Shown piece after piece: positions 6,914-26,842 of a stretch of DNA of 46,915 bases. The notes under the pieces are model-generated. The model was not told the origin of the DNA. It did no database searches and saw only the letters and a list, made by a program, of their open reading frames with translations. Where the stretch lies: IMG/VR virus record IMGVR_UViG_3300006927_003862, positions 1 to 46,915 of that record; one strand, given 5' to 3'. Numbering within the stretch: the first letter of the stretch is position 1; each line of letters begins with the position of its first letter. Source of the stretch: a virus. The translations under genes and the position numbers were made by a program.

Positions 6914-7387
6914 TTATCTATTCATAGCTCCAAAAATTTGTCGGAGATTATCCCCTTCAAAAACAATAACTGCCGACGGGAAAGGAGCGCCTGTGTCCAG
7001 GCCTCCAAACTTTAATCTGCCTTTAACGAAATACACCTGATCTGCTTTCATTACAAAATCGTGCCAATATCTAGTGTCGGTGCGTGCAGGAATAAGCATC
7101 ACCACGCGTGTATCTGGATCGCGCGATTCTTCATACGCCTTTTTAATCCACTTATCAATTCCTCTCCCGTAGGGGGGATTAACAAAGGAGGTGTGACCTT
7201 GCCAGCTTTGTGAAAGGCCGTCATCAGTTTCTGTAAAATATTTAAGGCACTTGTTAGTACTTGGTGTGGCGCATGGGTCAAGATTAAACGGGCCGAAGCG
7301 CCAGTTAAGTTTGTCAAAAAATTCTTGGGGGGTTTCCCAGCCTCCTGTGTTAGAAGAGAACATTACCTTGAGGGTTGATTTATCCAT
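6914..7387 (-). CDS. Phage N6-adenine DNA methyltransferase (Dam-like family)
   Basis: A 157-aa protein of the phage 'DNA N-6-adenine-methyltransferase' type. It has the family start WETPQEFFDKLN, FNLDPCATPSTNKC, and the catalytic FVNPPYGRGIDKW (NPPY motif IV), followed by MLIPARTDTRYWHDFV. It transfers a methyl group from S-adenosylmethionine to adenine in DNA, and in phages typically protects against host restriction. It is the last of three consecutive DNA-modification or restriction-type genes, with AGGAAAC before the ATG. Confidence 0.92.
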   Translation of the reverse strand: MDKSTLKVMFSSNTGGWETPQEFFDKLNWRFGPFNLDPCATPSTNKCLKYFTETDDGLSQSWQGHTSFVNPPYGRGIDKWIKKAYEESRDPDTRVVMLIPARTDTRYWHDFVMKADQVYFVKGRLKFGGLDTGAPFPSAVIVFEGDNLRQIFGAMNR

Positions 7388-7398
7388 ATTGTTTCCTA

Positions 7399-8346
7399 TT
7401 ATTTGGCCGCGGCCATTAGTTGTTTTTTTAGCTCTCGCTTAAGAGAGGCAGTTTTAAAATCGATTTCTTTGCGGGCGGTAGGAACATCAAAATATTCTTC
7501 CACCTTTGTCCAATCTTCGCTGCGCATACTAGCAACAGCGCCCCTATAAAAACTTACCCAAGTGTTTCCAAGAAGAGAGCGGAAAGTTTCTTCCTCCAGC
7601 TTTGTGGTGGCAATTTGTTGGTATCCATCATCAATTTCGAATCCAACATATTGGCGACCTAAACGCTTTGCTGCAATTGCAGTAGTTCCTGTACCCATGA
7701 ATGGATCTAATACCACATCCCCTTCGTCGGTGCAGCCTAAAATAAGTCGTTCCAGTAAATGAACAGGCAACTGGCATGGGTGATCATCACGAAATTTCTT
7801 GTGCTTGATACGGTGAATGTCGGTCCACACATCCGATACGAGAGGACCAAAGGGATGAACGGTGTCTTTTTTGCCGCCGTAGTCCTTTAAAAGATGGTTG
7901 CACCCTTTCTTCTTGCGACATCGCTTGTGTGGGTATCGCAACTCATAAAACTTATGATCTCCCGGCTTTGTATAAAACAAGATTCCATAATGAGCCGGCT
8001 GGAATGATTTGCCCATCGGGGCAGTGGGGGCATCCCACGAAATCCAATGCTTAAAATCTGCTTCCTTATTCAATACAGTTACACACTGTACTAACCACTT
8101 AGGAATATTATGAACCAAGATCGAGCCGCCCGGTTTAAGCACACGCACACTTTCCCGTACCCATCTTTCGGTCCATGCCATATAGGCGGCGTCGGTAAGC
8201 TGATCGTTGGTGGATGTATACTTTTTATTAAGATTAAAGGGTGGGTCAGCAAATACCATATCTACTGCTCCATCGGGAACTTGAGACAACAGATCTATGC
8301 AGTCTCCCTTATAGATTTTATTAAGTGTGCTGTCGAAGGTTTCCAT
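7399..8346 (-). CDS. Beta-class DNA (N4/N6) methyltransferase, candidate modification partner
   Basis: The motif order is beta-class: catalytic DPPF (34-37) comes first, and the S-adenosylmethionine-binding DPFMGTGTT (214-222) comes late, preceded by HPCQLPVHLLERLI. An insertion with a Cys/His cluster (HKRCRKKKGCNHLL, 140-153) may bind metal or DNA. It begins at ATG 8346 directly after the TAG of the putative endonuclease gene, with no spacer, so translation is probably coupled. Beta-class enzymes methylate adenine N6 or cytosine N4; which one, and the recognition site, cannot be read from the sequence. Confidence 0.93.
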   Translation of the reverse strand: METFDSTLNKIYKGDCIDLLSQVPDGAVDMVFADPPFNLNKKYTSTNDQLTDAAYMAWTERWVRESVRVLKPGGSILVHNIPKWLVQCVTVLNKEADFKHWISWDAPTAPMGKSFQPAHYGILFYTKPGDHKFYELRYPHKRCRKKKGCNHLLKDYGGKKDTVHPFGPLVSDVWTDIHRIKHKKFRDDHPCQLPVHLLERLILGCTDEGDVVLDPFMGTGTTAIAAKRLGRQYVGFEIDDGYQQIATTKLEEETFRSLLGNTWVSFYRGAVASMRSEDWTKVEEYFDVPTARKEIDFKTASLKRELKKQLMAAAK

Positions 8347-9048
8347 CTATGCCACCTCTTGGTTGAGTTCCGACAAGCTCTCCATTATACGCCGGCGGTG
8401 GGCCAAAGGAAGTGCGCTATACTCTCGCAGGATGATCTTTTCACTACGATGACAATCTGTGCGTTCCAACACTTTCTTAAACTCTTTAAAATTTTCAAAA
8501 AAAGGCTCTTGAAGGTAAGTGCGAGGGCGAATCTTGCCATCAGAAATTCTATATTTAAGTAGACCTTCCGGATTCATCCCAACAAATCTATAAAAGGGAG
8601 CGAACTCTACCTTTACAATCTCTTGTTTAACATCCGTAAAGTTATAATGAACCCAGAGAAAATAGATATTCTCTCCTCCCCATTCGGCCACGTGTTCAGG
8701 TAACGTCTTAAATGTTCCCAAATCATTGGCGGGAGAAGTGTTCTTAGCCCAGAGGCCTGCTTTCATGCCGCTGTGGTTAGAAGCTTTCACATCAATGGCG
8801 ATAGGCGTGCCGTTCCACTGCTCCACAACACGCAAGTCTGGGAATTCATTTTTATGGGTGGCGCGCCTGGAAGATTTGATAAGCCCCTTCTGGTGCAACA
8901 GTTTTACTAAAATGTCTGCCGCTGGGTCTTCCACTTGCTTCCCAAAAGTTTCGTAGTCGCACTTATTAAGGGCAACAAATCTTTCAACCTCTTGTTGAAC
9001 CTGGGGCAAATGAGATTCAATCGTTCGCTGGAGATTTTTATTGTCCAT
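8347..9048 (-). CDS. Putative PD-(D/E)xK restriction endonuclease paired with methyltransferase
   Basis: A 233-aa protein with a PD-(D/E)xK-type nuclease core: PD at 70-71 (EFPDLRVVEQW), then AIDVKASNHSG with Asp86 and Lys88 at the expected spacing. An N-terminal helical part and a C-terminal 100-residue part (VKVEFAPFYRFVGMNPEGLL) flank it. I do not recognise a specific restriction family, and the call rests on the motif and on its being directly abutted to a DNA methyltransferase gene. The pair would make a complete type II-like restriction-modification unit. Alternatives are a phage nuclease for host DNA degradation or a Mrr/VSR-like repair nuclease. The ATG at 9048 has GGGGAG upstream and overlaps the dUTPase stop. 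Confidence 0.6.
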   Translation of the reverse strand: MDNKNLQRTIESHLPQVQQEVERFVALNKCDYETFGKQVEDPAADILVKLLHQKGLIKSSRRATHKNEFPDLRVVEQWNGTPIAIDVKASNHSGMKAGLWAKNTSPANDLGTFKTLPEHVAEWGGENIYFLWVHYNFTDVKQEIVKVEFAPFYRFVGMNPEGLLKYRISDGKIRPRTYLQEPFFENFKEFKKVLERTDCHRSEKIILREYSALPLAHRRRIMESLSELNQEVA

Positions 9049-9499
9049 CGGTACTCCCCAGCGCGCCGTCTCCGCGGTTGCTGATGGTCATGGGGTAGTT
9101 ATATAAAGTTTCTTGCGTCGTTTCAGAGGGGCGAAAGTGTACTACGGGGGTCATGACTAACTGAGCAATCTTATCTCCGGGTTTAAGAGTTTGACTCTCA
9201 ACACCTATGTTATGCAAGTTAACAAACACCTCTCCTTCATATCCCGAATCGATGACGCATGCTCCCACAAGCAATTGGCGCTTCGCAGCCACGCTGGAAC
9301 GGTTCTTTACCTCCAGCATGTATCCGTGCGGAATTGCAAACTTTAAGCCGGTTGGGATTACGCGGCTTGTGTTGGTGGCAATATACATCTTGTTGTGTGG
9401 ATTTTCTGGTGAATAGAACACGTCCAGCCCAGCGTCTGATGGGTTGGCGCGTTCCGGAGGATGCGCGGAGGTGCGCACCTTCGCATACTCAACTATCAT
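9038..9499 (-). CDS. dut: dUTP diphosphatase
   Basis: A trimeric-type dUTPase of 153 aa with all five motifs: SDAGLDVFY (1), EVKNRSSVAAKRQL (2), GACVIDSGYEGEVFV (3), GDKIAQLV (4) and the flexible C-terminal NRGDGALGSTD (5, here RGDGALGS rather than RGxGGFGS). It hydrolyses dUTP to dUMP and pyrophosphate, keeping uracil out of phage DNA and feeding dTMP synthesis together with the dCMP-type deaminase at 22.3 kb. It overlaps both neighbours by about 11 bp. Confidence 0.95.
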   Translation of the reverse strand: MIVEYAKVRTSAHPPERANPSDAGLDVFYSPENPHNKMYIATNTSRVIPTGLKFAIPHGYMLEVKNRSSVAAKRQLLVGACVIDSGYEGEVFVNLHNIGVESQTLKPGDKIAQLVMTPVVHFRPSETTQETLYNYPMTISNRGDGALGSTDGQ

Positions 9500-10415: not shown

Positions 10416-13400
10416 TTATCCTAGCTGTTTAAATGTGCGTCCTACTGCATAGGTGCTAAACCCCCATTGCGGATCATGCTTAAGTGCGGCCATATATGGA
10501 CGATTAAGACGGATTCGATCCTTTTCGGGTTTCACTCCCCAGCATCTGATCTTAGTTAGTTCGTTGTTGGAGTCAATCACCTCCACAACCCAATATAACT
10601 TTCCATTTTTTGTTTTCTTGGGAATAATTTTGCGGGGGATAAACCAACAGATCTGTAACTCTGGGTCAAACTCGGAAATAGGAGGAATGTATCTTTCTTT
10701 TAATCTTTGGATAGTTTCTGAGGTGATCACCAAGTTGATGGGAAAGATACCCGTCAGATCAGTTTTGAATTGAATAATCTCTTCTTCGGTAAAATCTCCT
10801 TCCGGCTTGTAAATCTCAAGATTTTCCTGGAATTTTTTTATGTTCTTGGGGCGATCTACAATGCAGGTCGACCAAAAATGTTTACGCCCGGTGAAACGAT
10901 CATCTACAATATTGTCTAAAGCCCCTCCCCGACACAAGGCGTCTAAAGCCTTCTTATTAAGCTTACTATAAGACACCCCTTCACGAAAAAGCAAATCTTC
11001 CGCGTTCATAAAGGGCCTGTTTTCAAGCACTTGTTCGATGGCTGCCGCTCCCAATCCCTTAATAGATGTGAGCGGTTGAATCAGGGTCTTGCCGTCTTCG
11101 CTGATCTCCCAAACAACGCCTGATTTATTTACATCGAGGGGCGCAATTTTAAATCCGTGACTTTTAATAATATTAATTGCCTTTTCCTTCCGCGCTTCAG
11201 GTTCTTTATCAAGAAACGCCGCGGCCCACTCTGCTGGATAATGCGTCCACAACCATGCGCACTGATAGGAGATAATACTATAGGCCGTCGAATGATTCTT
11301 GGAAAACCCGTACTTTGCGAATCCTTCCATCAGTTCCCACATTTCTTCCGCCGTGCGAATAGACATTCCTTTTTCATTCGCTCCATGAATAAACCGTTCG
11401 CGAAATTCTACAAGAAGATGCTCCTTTCCTGTACCTTTTTTGGTCAGGAGTTTGCGAATGGTATTTCCTTCATCGCGAGAAATATCCTTTCCGATACGGT
11501 GAGTAATTTCACTAATTTGCTCTTGAAAAATTACATGCCCATAGCTCTCTTCCGTTATTTCTTTAAAGATGGGATGATACCACTCAATATCGGTATGCCC
11601 TTCCTTTGCAGCAATATACTGGTCGTGGACCTTGGCGGAAAGAGGGCCAGGGCGAAAGATGGAGGTCACAGCAGAAATCTCAGCGATGTTGGTGGGTTTC
11701 ACATTCTTGCAAAACTCTTGTGCTCCGCTGTTAGTAAACTGAAATGTCCCTGCAAAGTTGCCTTTGTGAAAAACATACTTATAAACTTTTTGATCTTCCA
11801 AGTCTAAAACATCTGGGTGTATGTTTTGATTATAGTGTTCTCGAACTTGTGCAAAGGTGACACTCTCTACTCCGTGATGCCGGCGCAAGATATGTTCGAT
11901 GCACCCCTCAATCATTTTGAGGGTCGATAGGCCCAATAGATCGAACTTAATGAAACCCAAGGGCTCAAGGTGTCGAACGTTTTGTCCTTCCGCCCATGGA
12001 GACTGACGTACACCTCCGCTATTAATCAACGGCATATTTTCATTAAGGTTTTCAGAAACGAGCAGCCCTCCAGCATGCCGCGAACAAGAGCGTACCTGTC
12101 CCACAAGCCCTTGGACACGTGCTTGAACCTCGGGATACTTGGCTAGGTAGACTTGGAGGGATGGGGAAAACTCTAGCACTTCCTCCCAGGTGGGAACATA
12201 GACGCCAGCCGAAATACCGTGTCGCTGCTTAGCTGGGCCTGTGGCCTCATGCATCATGACCGACGTAACCGTATTAACTTCGGTAAAGGGAATCTCGTAG
12301 AGCTTGGAAATGTCCTTAATTAAGGAGCGCAACTGCAGAGTGTTCCAGTTGGAAATAGGCGCAACACTGTCTTCTCCCCATTTTTCAATGAGGAGTTCTT
12401 TAAGCATCATGCTGTCGGATACATCCGTATCGATATCGGGGTAGTCGGTCGCATCTGATCGCAGGAAGCGCTCAAACGGTAGTCTATACTTGATTGGATC
12501 TATTTGGGTAATCTTCAACACATAGGCCACCAATGATCCGCATGCGCTGCCTCTGCCAGGCCCAACTAACATAACCTCCGTCGCCTCATCAATGATAGCC
12601 TTCATGGTTAAAAAGTATTTACTAAAGCCGCGGCAATCAATTACGCTTAGTTCATGCTTAAGGCGCTCCACATAGACTTCATCATGGTGCAGCCCCATGG
12701 TACGCAATCCATCAATTGCATATTTAACCAGAGCCTGTGTGGCTGTTGCCCCTTCGGGAACGACAAAATCCGGAAGCCTAACTGTCGCGTCCGGCATGAA
12801 AGTCTCAATACGATCATGAGCGATTCTATGAGTTTCTTCAATGCTTTGAAGGATCAGGTCATCATTATACTCCACCTGTTGAGCCTCGGCATATCTCTTG
12901 TAGCTCTCCCACATCTGATCACCATTCTTGGGATAGAGTTCATAGCCAATTTTCTCCACAGACGAAGGAATGACTTCGTTTTCTCCCTCTTCCTCGGGAT
13001 CTGTCTTCCATTTGGGCTTGCCTTTTCCTAGCCACCCTAGTTGTTTGTACATCTCGCGGTCGCGCCATGATTCGGGCGTCGGATAATGACTGTCGGCTGT
13101 AGAAATGAGTTTAACTCCGAATTCGGTCGCGACTTGAATGATATACTGGTTAAGTTCGTGTTGTTCGGGGATATTATTCCATTGTAATTCGCCATACCAC
13201 CGATCTCCAAAGATGGATTGCATTTCCATGGTCGTTTCGCGCATTGCATCTAAAATGGCGTCAGCGCCTTCCTCGCGGTTCTCCCAGTAGTTGCCGGCGT
13301 ATACCCCTCCCAAGCATGCGGACGCAGCTATAACCCCCTCAGAGTGCTCTCTCAGCAGATCGTAGTCCATGCGCGGGTATCGATAAAAATACTCGTCGGT

Positions 13401-13850
13401 GTAACTTTTCGAAACCAATTTAAAAAGATTAGTCAGCCCTGTCTGGTTTTGGGCTAGTAGAATTAAGTGGCGGCGTCTTTTTAGAATAGTTTGTGCCTTT
13501 TTGGTGTCACCCTCATCTTCAACAGTTGCACCCGATTGAGTATCTTTCTTGGCAGACCGGGCCTTCTTTTTGTCAGCCATCTCGGCTTCATAAGCCGAGC
13601 GCCACTCTTTAATGGAGGTGGTAAAATATGCTTCAACTCCATAAATTGGCTTAAAGGCTTTTCCTTCTGCTAGCATCTTTTTAGCATGAAGCACCTGCCA
13701 TGATAGACCGTTCATGTTGCCATGATCAGTGAGCGCTAGCGCATCACTCCCGTTTTCATATGCAAAGTCCATATGTTCTTGGGGATATCCCACGGCATCG
13801 AAAATAGAACCTGCCACACTGTGTGCGTGAAGTCCAACAAATTTAATCAC
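10416..13850 (-). CDS. dnaE: DNA polymerase III alpha subunit (family C, DnaE-like)
   Basis: Length 1144 aa, close to E. coli DnaE (1160). Domains in order: N-terminal PHP domain (GLHAHSVAGSIFDAVG at 6-21 and ALTDHGNMNG at 39-48), then the family C palm with PGRGSACGSLVAY (431-443) and the catalytic acidic motif PDIDTD (471-476). FIKFDLLGLSTLKM follows, then the fingers/tandem helix-hairpin-helix region (SIKGLGAAAIEQVLENRPF) and an OB-fold-like C-terminus. It is the chain-elongating polymerase. A phage family C enzyme is uncommon, and this phage also has a family A polymerase. It starts at GTG 13850 after GGAGAAAAA and overlaps the preceding membrane-protein stop. The promoter at 14158-14186 probably serves it. 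Confidence 0.96.
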   Translation of the reverse strand: MIKFVGLHAHSVAGSIFDAVGYPQEHMDFAYENGSDALALTDHGNMNGLSWQVLHAKKMLAEGKAFKPIYGVEAYFTTSIKEWRSAYEAEMADKKKARSAKKDTQSGATVEDEGDTKKAQTILKRRRHLILLAQNQTGLTNLFKLVSKSYTDEYFYRYPRMDYDLLREHSEGVIAASACLGGVYAGNYWENREEGADAILDAMRETTMEMQSIFGDRWYGELQWNNIPEQHELNQYIIQVATEFGVKLISTADSHYPTPESWRDREMYKQLGWLGKGKPKWKTDPEEEGENEVIPSSVEKIGYELYPKNGDQMWESYKRYAEAQQVEYNDDLILQSIEETHRIAHDRIETFMPDATVRLPDFVVPEGATATQALVKYAIDGLRTMGLHHDEVYVERLKHELSVIDCRGFSKYFLTMKAIIDEATEVMLVGPGRGSACGSLVAYVLKITQIDPIKYRLPFERFLRSDATDYPDIDTDVSDSMMLKELLIEKWGEDSVAPISNWNTLQLRSLIKDISKLYEIPFTEVNTVTSVMMHEATGPAKQRHGISAGVYVPTWEEVLEFSPSLQVYLAKYPEVQARVQGLVGQVRSCSRHAGGLLVSENLNENMPLINSGGVRQSPWAEGQNVRHLEPLGFIKFDLLGLSTLKMIEGCIEHILRRHHGVESVTFAQVREHYNQNIHPDVLDLEDQKVYKYVFHKGNFAGTFQFTNSGAQEFCKNVKPTNIAEISAVTSIFRPGPLSAKVHDQYIAAKEGHTDIEWYHPIFKEITEESYGHVIFQEQISEITHRIGKDISRDEGNTIRKLLTKKGTGKEHLLVEFRERFIHGANEKGMSIRTAEEMWELMEGFAKYGFSKNHSTAYSIISYQCAWLWTHYPAEWAAAFLDKEPEARKEKAINIIKSHGFKIAPLDVNKSGVVWEISEDGKTLIQPLTSIKGLGAAAIEQVLENRPFMNAEDLLFREGVSYSKLNKKALDALCRGGALDNIVDDRFTGRKHFWSTCIVDRPKNIKKFQENLEIYKPEGDFTEEEIIQFKTDLTGIFPINLVITSETIQRLKERYIPPISEFDPELQICWFIPRKIIPKKTKNGKLYWVVEVIDSNNELTKIRCWGVKPEKDRIRLNRPYMAALKHDPQWGFSTYAVGRTFKQLG

Positions 13851-24814: not shown

Positions 24815-25655
24815 GAGTATTTTGTTGTTGTATCGTGTTTGTATGGGCCACGACGTACCCAAAATCGGTATACGGAGTTTCATAAATCGCATATGAAATC
24901 TTGCGAAAAGCATTCGATGGCTTCTTTTTGAGCATATCTACAATCCTTTGGTGCAACATTCCTTCCTTTTCTAATCTTTCTCCATTTATACATAAATAAT
25001 AACACAGATCTCGCTCTCTGTCAAGCTCAAAAAACCATTTTTCTTCTAAATTTTTCATATCGAGTGCTCCGATACTACGGATACGATTAATCGCGGCAGG
25101 TTTTGATACTTGACCAATTTCCGGGTCAGCATGAGCAAAATAATTAGCATAATGGACCGCTGCAAAAATGCATGCATTAAGGGTGTCATAATACCCTTTA
25201 ATCGGAACATTCCCCAGTGTTTTTTCAACCTCTACATTAGAAAAGATAGTAAAAGAATTAAGAAGGCCAGACCGAGCATACTCTTGCAACACTCCAAAGG
25301 TCATATTTTCCACTAGCCGACGTTCGCCGTTTACTAGTTCAATATCCGGCTTAATATAAAATACATCTACCTTTCGCCCTCGTAGTTGCTCCAAGATTCC
25401 CAATGAATAGTTGGAGCTATATGCTGTGCCAACTATAAACACCTGTATTTGCTGGCGTAAATCTTTGAAAAAGTTTTTCAAATTAGGGATGTGCTTTTCG
25501 TATTCTTCTGGGCTATCGAATTTATCAAGTTTATATTCTCGCTTAGAATTTTTGATTATCTCATCATTTAATTTATACACCTCGTATTGAGGTGTTTCTG
25601 CGAACTTCTCTGCGATGGCAGACGCGCCAGAGCCGATGCCTATAACCGATATCAT
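24798..25655 (-). CDS. Divergent FtsZ/tubulin-like protein, 285 aa
   Basis: I base this on layout, not on intact signature motifs. The N-terminus (ISVIGIGSGASAIAEKF) matches the first nucleotide loop of FtsZ. Residues 72-91 (VFIVGTAYSSNYSLGILEQL) sit where FtsZ has GGGTGTG plus helix, but the glycine loop is lost. YIKPDIELVNGERRLVE (100-116) matches the FtsZ 'TKPF..EG.RR' strand-loop-helix. Asn140 and YYDTLNACIFAAV (155-167) match the later nucleotide contacts and helix H7. The FtsZ T7 loop is not evident. It may be a phage filament or a non-hydrolysing relative. It is coupled to the polymerase gene by an ATGA overlap. Alternative: an unrelated Rossmann-fold protein. Confidence 0.55.
   Translation of the reverse strand: MISVIGIGSGASAIAEKFAETPQYEVYKLNDEIIKNSKREYKLDKFDSPEEYEKHIPNLKNFFKDLRQQIQVFIVGTAYSSNYSLGILEQLRGRKVDVFYIKPDIELVNGERRLVENMTFGVLQEYARSGLLNSFTIFSNVEVEKTLGNVPIKGYYDTLNACIFAAVHYANYFAHADPEIGQVSKPAAINRIRSIGALDMKNLEEKWFFELDRERDLCYYLCINGERLEKEGMLHQRIVDMLKKKPSNAFRKISYAIYETPYTDFGYVVAHTNTIQQQNTLDKID
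24996..25024 (-). promoter_or_regulatory. Possible internal promoter in tubulin-like gene
   Basis: TTGACA (25019-25024), a 17-bp spacer and TATTAT (24996-25001). It lies inside coding sequence and may be chance, but it has the same geometry as the others and would add transcription of SSB. Confidence 0.45.
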
Positions 25656-26842
25656 ATATCTAGATTCTCTAAATCATAATAGTTTTTGCCGGCTTTTAAA
25701 TTAACCATAAATTTCCCTAATTGGTTATTTGCGAACATCTCTTTAATTTCGGGGATTAAATGGCGTTCCTCGTCCGCAAAATCAAGCACAATTTCATCAT
25801 GTACAATATGAGAAACAAACGATTTCTTATCCTGTAAAAACTCATCCATCGCGATGGCCCTCTCGATAACCAAGTCGGCCGTCGTACTTTGAATCAAATA
25901 ATTGAACGCCTTCCACTCATTCACAAGAATATGCCTGTCAAATACAGTATTAATATACCCTCCATCGTAGTAAGTGTCAAGTACTTTTTGACGATTATAA
26001 TAAGAAGCGCTTATATGGTCAGCATCTGGGTTGTAGAGCCATGCAAAAAATGTTGTCTTGGCGGTATCGCGATCCATCCCAGTGTTTTTAAAAACATTTA
26101 CAATATTCCACTCGTGGATATCTCCTCTCGGCTGTTCTTCTCCGGAGAGTGCCAAAAGTGTGCGCACCTCCGCGCCGTTATAATCCAAGGAGACAAACCA
26201 ATCGTGGTGCGGCTTAATGAGCCTACGCAATTCTTTTTTCATTGTCAGAATGGGGAGTGATCTGGGACTTGTTGTCAGGCGGCCCGTGATCGTTCCAAAA
26301 AGATTATAATCTATATGACGAGGTCCATTTAAAATCTTTTGCGAAGCATGTCGCAAGCCACTTTGTACAAAAAGGTTGCGACAATCTTCATTGTTTAGAT
26401 TTAAGTCGCGTTGCTTTATCTTAAAAAGCAATTTATATGCCTTATCCATATGGTCATAATTGGAAGGGCGCTCATTGTGCTCTATCACATGTTCTGTAAT
26501 TTGATTTTTAACCTCGCAAAATTCTAACAAGGCGTCATGAGGCACTAAATCAAAAAAACAGTGGTGGCGCAAATTAACCTTGGCGATATCAAACGATTTT
26601 TTATAGGCTGCTATTTTTTTACGAATTTTTTCGTAACGTGTCAGTAGGTGATCGGGGCATGCCTCTTGTAAAGAAAGCCCATTGCCGTAAATCCAGGCAT
26701 ACTCCACTTTTTCTTCTGGAGGAATATACCCACTATAGCGCCATGTCTTGGTCAAACTCGATGGAGGTTCGTCAAACCATAACTTGCCATCCACATATAC
26801 ACCAACACATTCCGATTTATCATCTAGGGTCTGAAAAATCAA
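25652..26842 (-). CDS. Family A DNA polymerase, polymerase core only
   Basis: A 396-aa protein carrying only the palm/fingers of PolA. Motif A is SLDYNGAEVRTLLALSG. Motif B fits RxxxKxxxFxxxY as RDTAKTTFFAWLY (the usual Tyr-Gly replaced, with Phe at the 762 equivalent). Motif C is HIVHDEIVLDF. There is no 3'-5' or 5'-3' exonuclease domain; the 5'-3' nuclease is a separate gene at 21.3-22.3 kb. With a family C polymerase elsewhere, this enzyme may do gap filling, repair or recombination-linked synthesis. The start is TTG at 26842 with GGGAGG correctly spaced and TTGA overlap with the upstream stop. An internal promoter lies at 25952-25980. Confidence 0.9.
   Translation of the reverse strand: MIFQTLDDKSECVGVYVDGKLWFDEPPSSLTKTWRYSGYIPPEEKVEYAWIYGNGLSLQEACPDHLLTRYEKIRKKIAAYKKSFDIAKVNLRHHCFFDLVPHDALLEFCEVKNQITEHVIEHNERPSNYDHMDKAYKLLFKIKQRDLNLNNEDCRNLFVQSGLRHASQKILNGPRHIDYNLFGTITGRLTTSPRSLPILTMKKELRRLIKPHHDWFVSLDYNGAEVRTLLALSGEEQPRGDIHEWNIVNVFKNTGMDRDTAKTTFFAWLYNPDADHISASYYNRQKVLDTYYDGGYINTVFDRHILVNEWKAFNYLIQSTTADLVIERAIAMDEFLQDKKSFVSHIVHDEIVLDFADEERHLIPEIKEMFANNQLGKFMVNLKAGKNYYDLENLDI
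25952..25980 (-). promoter_or_regulatory. Internal promoter in family A polymerase gene
   Basis: TTGACA (25975-25980), a 17-bp spacer and TATATT (25952-25957). It would transcribe the 3' third of the polymerase gene and the tubulin-like and SSB genes. Confidence 0.6.

Follow-up and report, generated by a model that had tools for sequence, protein, structure and literature searches.

Two adjacent genes of an uncultured phage, one encoding a putative nuclease (NUC) and the other a DNA methyltransferase (MT), are likely to form a phage-borne type II restriction-modification (R-M) pair of putative activity, which would represent one of many interchangeable alleles found at a dedicated exchange slot. 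The window, i.e., the whole stretch of DNA analyzed here, is a virus record of 46,915 bases with phage-type gene content, including genes for the alpha subunit of DNA polymerase III (PolIII), a DnaB-like helicase, a UvsX-like recombinase, two ClpP-like proteins, and baseplate and connector proteins. Its nucleotide-metabolism genes encode ribonucleotide reductase, dUTPase, an IMPDH/GMP-reductase-like enzyme and thioredoxin. Related contigs of 194-203 kb occur repeatedly, suggesting a genome of about this size, of which the window would be one fragment. The same DNA is present in two other, near-identical contigs, with 5 differences over 23.4 kb and a single one over 5.3 kb. The integrase family PF00589 was absent from the window and 11 related records (12 tested, four of them of 194-203 kb), using a search that was positive in 14 of 14 cellular genomes. 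Note also that the window encodes, besides PolIII alpha, a 396-residue protein that resembles a partial family A DNA polymerase (positions 25652-26842).

Table 1. Positions of the NUC-MT cassette, its flanking genes and the anchor gene in the window.
Feature	Position	Strand	Evidence and remarks
Dam-type methyltransferase	6914..7387	-	PF05869, E 2.1e-29; mostly conserved downstream flank of the slot
MT, 315 aa, beta-class N6/N4 DNA methyltransferase	7399..8346	-	PF01555, E 5.9e-48; PADLOC MTase_II, 3.5e-71
NUC, 233 aa, putative PD-(D/E)xK (EcoRV-like) restriction endonuclease	8347..9048	-	Motif context and hhalign against an EcoRV profile
dUTPase	9038..9499	-	PF00692, 9.7e-18; upstream flank of the slot; the NUC start lies in its last codons
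DNA polymerase III alpha	10416..13850	-	PF07733, PF17657, PF02811, PF14579; conserved anchor for collecting relatives

NUC and MT are separate neighboring genes, as in orthodox type II R-M systems. The MT carries motif IV (ADPPFN) ahead of motif I (DPFMGTGTT), which is the beta order, and its relatives in the PDB include M.MboIIA and CcrM; together with the Pfam match (Table 1), this confirms the assignment to beta-class DNA methyltransferases made in an earlier note on this DNA. The same note had described a coupling of the two genes with zero spacing, and at the sequence level this holds true: at the junction (...GGCATAGATGGAAACC...) the TAG of NUC is immediately followed by the ATG of MT.

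The case for a nuclease is based on the residues P70-D71, D86 and K88, which are present as previously proposed and lie within FPDLRV-x9-PIAIDVKAS; shuffled versions of NUC contain a strict form of this motif in 0.1% of cases, in a test performed post hoc. No family match for NUC was found in Pfam (E up to 1), PHROGs, NCBIfam, PADLOC (including REase_II) or PDB sequences, a tblastn search against phages and plasmids gave nothing meaningful, and homologues in phage records and genome contigs were absent beyond the two near-identical contigs. Contig scans, one of them guided by an artificial second row containing only the motif residues of NUC (a made-up probe used just for picking search patterns), returned identical copies only, and AlphaFold2, run without homologues or alignment, produced an unusable model (pLDDT 37.5). 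NUC was also aligned by hhalign to a profile of seven EcoRV-family proteins from plasmids and an archaeal virus, whose EcoRV query sequence is 100% identical to the plasmid-borne EcoRV. The alignment is collinear over 86 columns and reached a score of 32.4 (E 4e-4 for one comparison); 200 shuffles reached 21.2 at best and 600 control ORFs taken from these phages 25.5, and the remaining slot proteins all scored far lower than NUC. The candidate catalytic residues E40, D71, D86 and K88 of NUC fall on E45, D74, D90 and K92 of EcoRV, and the likeness to the EcoRV family (PF09233) thus extends over the collinear catalytic E, PD and D-x-K and an LG motif after the lysine. However, NUC has no Pfam match to this family and is therefore not a member by the Pfam test, and the GSG-T-N recognition loop, invariant in the seven aligned members, is absent from it. 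As the comparison was picked after the resemblance of the NUC motif had been noticed, it supports, rather than proves, the presence of an EcoRV-like catalytic core.

Relatives of the phage were collected using PolIII alpha as an anchor, which gave 112 non-identical loci with both flanks; these form 99 clusters when polIII is grouped at 95% nucleotide identity. Their gene order is conserved (polIII - clpP - small gene - dUTPase - Dam-type gene - thioredoxin - IMPDH-like gene), with some relatives lacking dUTPase and a few lacking the Dam-type gene. The variable slot, occupied in the window by NUC and MT, is found between dUTPase and the Dam-type gene, just before the latter, and NUC starts at the same ATGGACA position as does the Dam-type gene in the empty-slot relative L079. 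The third gene that the earlier note had listed alongside the pair is indeed of the Dam type (Table 1), but as most of the 112 relatives carry it, whether their slot is empty or full, it is located outside the NUC-MT cassette. The gap in front of the small gene that precedes dUTPase, NUC and MT contains a promoter-like site at positions 9798-9770 of the minus strand (10 of 12 matches, with TG ahead of the second hexamer); promoter-like sites in the whole region showed no excess over shuffles.

The slot is empty in 52 of the 112 loci, contains a methyltransferase in 33, other inserts of more than 400 nt in 17 and small inserts in seven, and could not be anchored in three. All 33 methyltransferase-bearing slots also contain a companion ORF (short in L057 and frame-broken in L073), 17 companion families were counted, and the slot methyltransferases that were tested are all DNA methyltransferases (27/27). 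Many of the companions look like restriction enzymes: R.HinP1I (PF11463, 1.1e-23, L189) and MspI (PF09208, 1e-22, L151) family members are encoded beside a methyltransferase, XhoI (PF04555, 2.8e-11, L090) is found alone, with no methyltransferase, and the companions in L047, L061, L187 and L192 match PADLOC REase_II. For the L061 companion, the best nuclease matches of an AlphaFold2 model (four sequences, pLDDT 72) are I-Ssp6803I and EcoRV, both of PD-(D/E)xK type (E 8e-3, at low TM-scores of 0.34-0.42). The companions with neither a curated nor a PADLOC identification were called nuclease-like by eye only, and a loose PD-(D/E)xK regular expression, a weak and post hoc indicator, matched 9 of 23 companions vs. 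13% of control ORFs. The closest slot relative of the window MT is the one paired with the HinP1I-type enzyme (36% identity). The idea of a type II R-M-like pair put forward in the earlier note is indirectly supported as far as NUC and MT are concerned, since they behave as an allele at a locus that holds HinP1I and MspI pairs in sister phages, and since carriers of the latter are depleted for the matching sites (see below); it is not supported for the Dam-type gene as a member.

Several other slot contents deserve mention. The alleles of L119 (12450-15436), L194 and L132 consist of three genes, encoding a nuclease-like companion, a methyltransferase and a third protein, which is a GHKL ATPase resembling MzaB or, in L132, a 372-residue protein without identification. 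A recurring protein of 380-411 residues and unknown function occurs in the slots of L184, L053 and L151, twice beside a nuclease-like gene, and the L053 copy has no NCBIfam match. In L185 (5016-5765), a GIY-YIG group I intron endonuclease-like gene directly follows dUTPase in the slot. In L034, the slot contains a k4 nuclease-like gene without a methyltransferase, the same allele being paired in L149; AGCT is absent from L034 (0 observed, 36 expected), and this phage may therefore tolerate the unpaired k4 nuclease. L034 (6070-7056) also belongs, together with ten other loci, to a subset of relatives with an adenylosuccinate synthase-like gene (328 residues) adjoining the slot; this gene also matches PurZ, which serves to make 2-aminoadenine DNA, but less strongly.

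Near-identical phages differ in the presence or identity of the cassette, which reflects recent exchange. The empty locus L102 and the filled locus L103 share 95.4% identity in polIII and 97.8% and 91.6% identity in the flanks and are distinguished by a clean 1.5-kb insert, and L192 and L193, with polIII genes that are 99.7% identical, carry different pairs in the slot.

Under exposure to orthodox type II systems, hosts as well as viruses are known to lose the recognition sites (PMC6286503), and if the slot nucleases are active in vivo, their carriers should be depleted for the matching sites. For the MspI-type allele, the two carriers, the polIII genes of which are just 72.9% identical to each other, have the two lowest CCGG ratios of the 112 loci (9 observed vs. 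33 expected and 5 vs. 16), the family median being 1.17 and the nearest non-carriers ranging from 0.8 to 1.4. Similarly, GCGC is absent from the HinP1I-type carrier (0 vs. 24 expected), and its nearest sisters have ratios of 0.71-0.96. In the case of the XhoI-type carrier L090, avoidance of YTCGAR is not specific, as many loci have none. An open search over 448 palindromic words tied AGCT to the k4 allele (0/36, 1/57 and 12/57 of the expected number), TGCA to k12, where avoidance is seen in two distant clades, CTNAG to k2, GTNNAC to k9 and, more weakly, TCGA to k1; since k2 and k9 occur in closely related phages, CTNAG and GTNNAC are less independent. Avoidance of the best word is stronger in methyltransferase-bearing than in empty loci (p 6e-5), and the avoided words track the slot allele rather than the clade. 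Some empty-slot loci also avoid words strongly (TGNNCA, 2/96 in L037; TGNCA, 22/86 in L028; ACGT, 0/19 in L186), perhaps owing to a further R-M system encoded by the host or at another position of the phage genome. Irrespective of slot content, many relatives (e.g., L082, L086, L162 and L194) are poor in GGCC, often retaining 0-3 copies, a pattern suggestive of restriction pressure that is ancestral or comes from a shared host.

In the window, GGNNCC shows the strongest depletion by a wide margin and ranks first among all 256 XYNNZW words, with 68 copies observed vs. 164 expected after family correction. Over a 23-kb region, the ratio of the window is 0.31, the lowest of the 112 loci, the next being 0.61, and the nearest non-carriers have ratios of 0.97-1.23. 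The depletion is absent at other spacings (GGNNNCC, GGNNNNCC), the NUC and MT genes themselves contain no GGNNCC, and successive thirds of the window contain 14/47, 19/42 and 35/57 of the expected sites, the effect being weaker far from the slot. Thirteen of the 16 forms of GGNNCC are clearly or moderately depleted; GGGTCC, GGTACC and GGCGCC are the least affected and GGTGCC is also only weakly depleted, and the weak depletion of GGCGCC, GGTACC and GGTGCC makes the exact site uncertain. Based on this word depletion, which concerns a single lineage with one allele copy and could also stem from a host R-M system, it is rather probable that NUC and MT recognize a GGNNCC-like site. The depleted word is the same as that recognized by NlaIV, which cuts GGNNCC bluntly and has reportedly been modeled on EcoRV. 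Like the HinP1I site GCGC, which has no adenine and would imply N4-cytosine methylation by the HinP1I-paired MT if that enzyme is matched, GGNNCC contains no fixed A, and the window MT is therefore probably an N4-cytosine methyltransferase as well.

These observations can be accommodated by a mechanism in which MT would mark GGNNCC-like sites on progeny DNA and virion DNA would enter the next cell protected. NUC made during infection would cut DNA without this mark. Its targets would include related phages present in the cell, each with tens of GGNNCC sites per 20 kb, and might extend to the host chromosome. Incomplete self-protection may lead to loss of the phage's own GGNNCC sites, and recombination in the conserved flanks would swap the slot alleles. 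A lytic phage needs no protection of its own host, and the rapid turnover of alleles leads us to favor conflict between phages as the role of the pair. Alternatively, NUC might mainly degrade the host chromosome for nucleotides while MT protects phage DNA, a role that we regard as possible and rather doubtful. It would fit the nucleotide-metabolism genes of the phage named above, and chloroviruses carry restriction enzymes in their particles and break down the DNA of the host within minutes (PMC7019647); however, high allele diversity and turnover are expected from phage-phage conflict and not from a constant host-degrading role, and marseilleviruses with R-M systems are described as leaving host DNA undegraded (PMC7253447).

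Two further explanations were considered. MT could serve as an anti-restriction enzyme that shields the phage from a type II system of the host with matching specificity, in which case NUC would be inactive or unrelated and the avoidance of GGNNCC would be due to the host enzyme. Solitary methyltransferases do outnumber complete R-M systems in phages (PMC4176335), phages commonly avoid the sites of host orthodox type II systems (PMC6286503), and the depletion of GGCC across much of the family regardless of the slot looks like such an effect of the host. This explanation nevertheless appears unlikely, given that no slot methyltransferase stands alone, that several companions are certified restriction enzymes, and that avoided words go with the slot allele and not with the clade. 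The slot genes could also be homing-like selfish nucleases, in which case NUC would cut cassette-free relatives at or near the empty slot, repair would copy the cassette, and MT would limit self-damage. We consider this very improbable: enzymes of type II with short sites would cut a rival genome many times, destroying rather than converting it, and paired methyltransferases and genome-wide word avoidance fit R-M, even though cassettes are cleanly present or absent among near-identical phages, the L061 companion model resembles the homing enzyme I-Ssp6803I as well as EcoRV, and the L185 slot contains the GIY-YIG intron endonuclease.

The window pair resembles known type II R-M systems in the side-by-side arrangement of a gene for a putative PD-(D/E)xK-type nuclease and one for a DNA methyltransferase, and sister-phage alleles match the HinP1I, MspI and XhoI families; what differs is their occurrence, known from sequence, in phages without integrase (12 records) and at one slot with many interchangeable alleles. 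In chloroviruses and marseilleviruses, R and M genes likewise lie side by side, and their proposed targets are host DNA or competing viruses; the chlorovirus restriction enzymes act on host DNA, with nucleotide supply as a proposed benefit (PMC7019647), and conflict between viruses is proposed for marseilleviruses (PMC7253447). Unlike the phage studied here, these are viruses of eukaryotes, and the descriptions cited here contain no comparable swap slot with many specificities. R/M.Nph3I of the Nitratiruptor phage NrS-3 is a phage-encoded R-M system that is active in vitro and has few cognate sites in the phage genome, but it differs from the window pair in being the single system of a temperate phage, with a proposed benefit for the lysogen (PMC10734518). 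Phages that are not integrated have been reported to carry almost no R-M systems (9 in 831 genomes; PMC4176335), and approximately 30% of the 112 related loci carry a methyltransferase and a companion gene at one swap site. While virus-borne R-M and site avoidance are each already known, a conserved many-type R-M swap slot in non-integrating phages, combined with carrier-specific avoidance, was not found in the open-access literature searched, which is weak evidence of novelty.

Our data suggest that R-M pairs are exchanged between viruses as weapons. On balance, we lean slightly toward the broader view that an entire family of apparently lytic, uncultured phages maintains one locus devoted to exchanging complete type II R-M systems of many specificities. 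These would serve as weapons between phages and be active enough to reshape the genomes of their carriers, so that the sites of unknown alleles, GGNNCC included, could be read from the avoided words. If this is true, word avoidance would provide a direct and cheap prediction of specificity for each allele, testable in vitro, and the slot would be a source of enzymes with new specificities. Conflict among phages, or between phage and host, would then routinely involve restriction enzymes that are rapidly exchanged.
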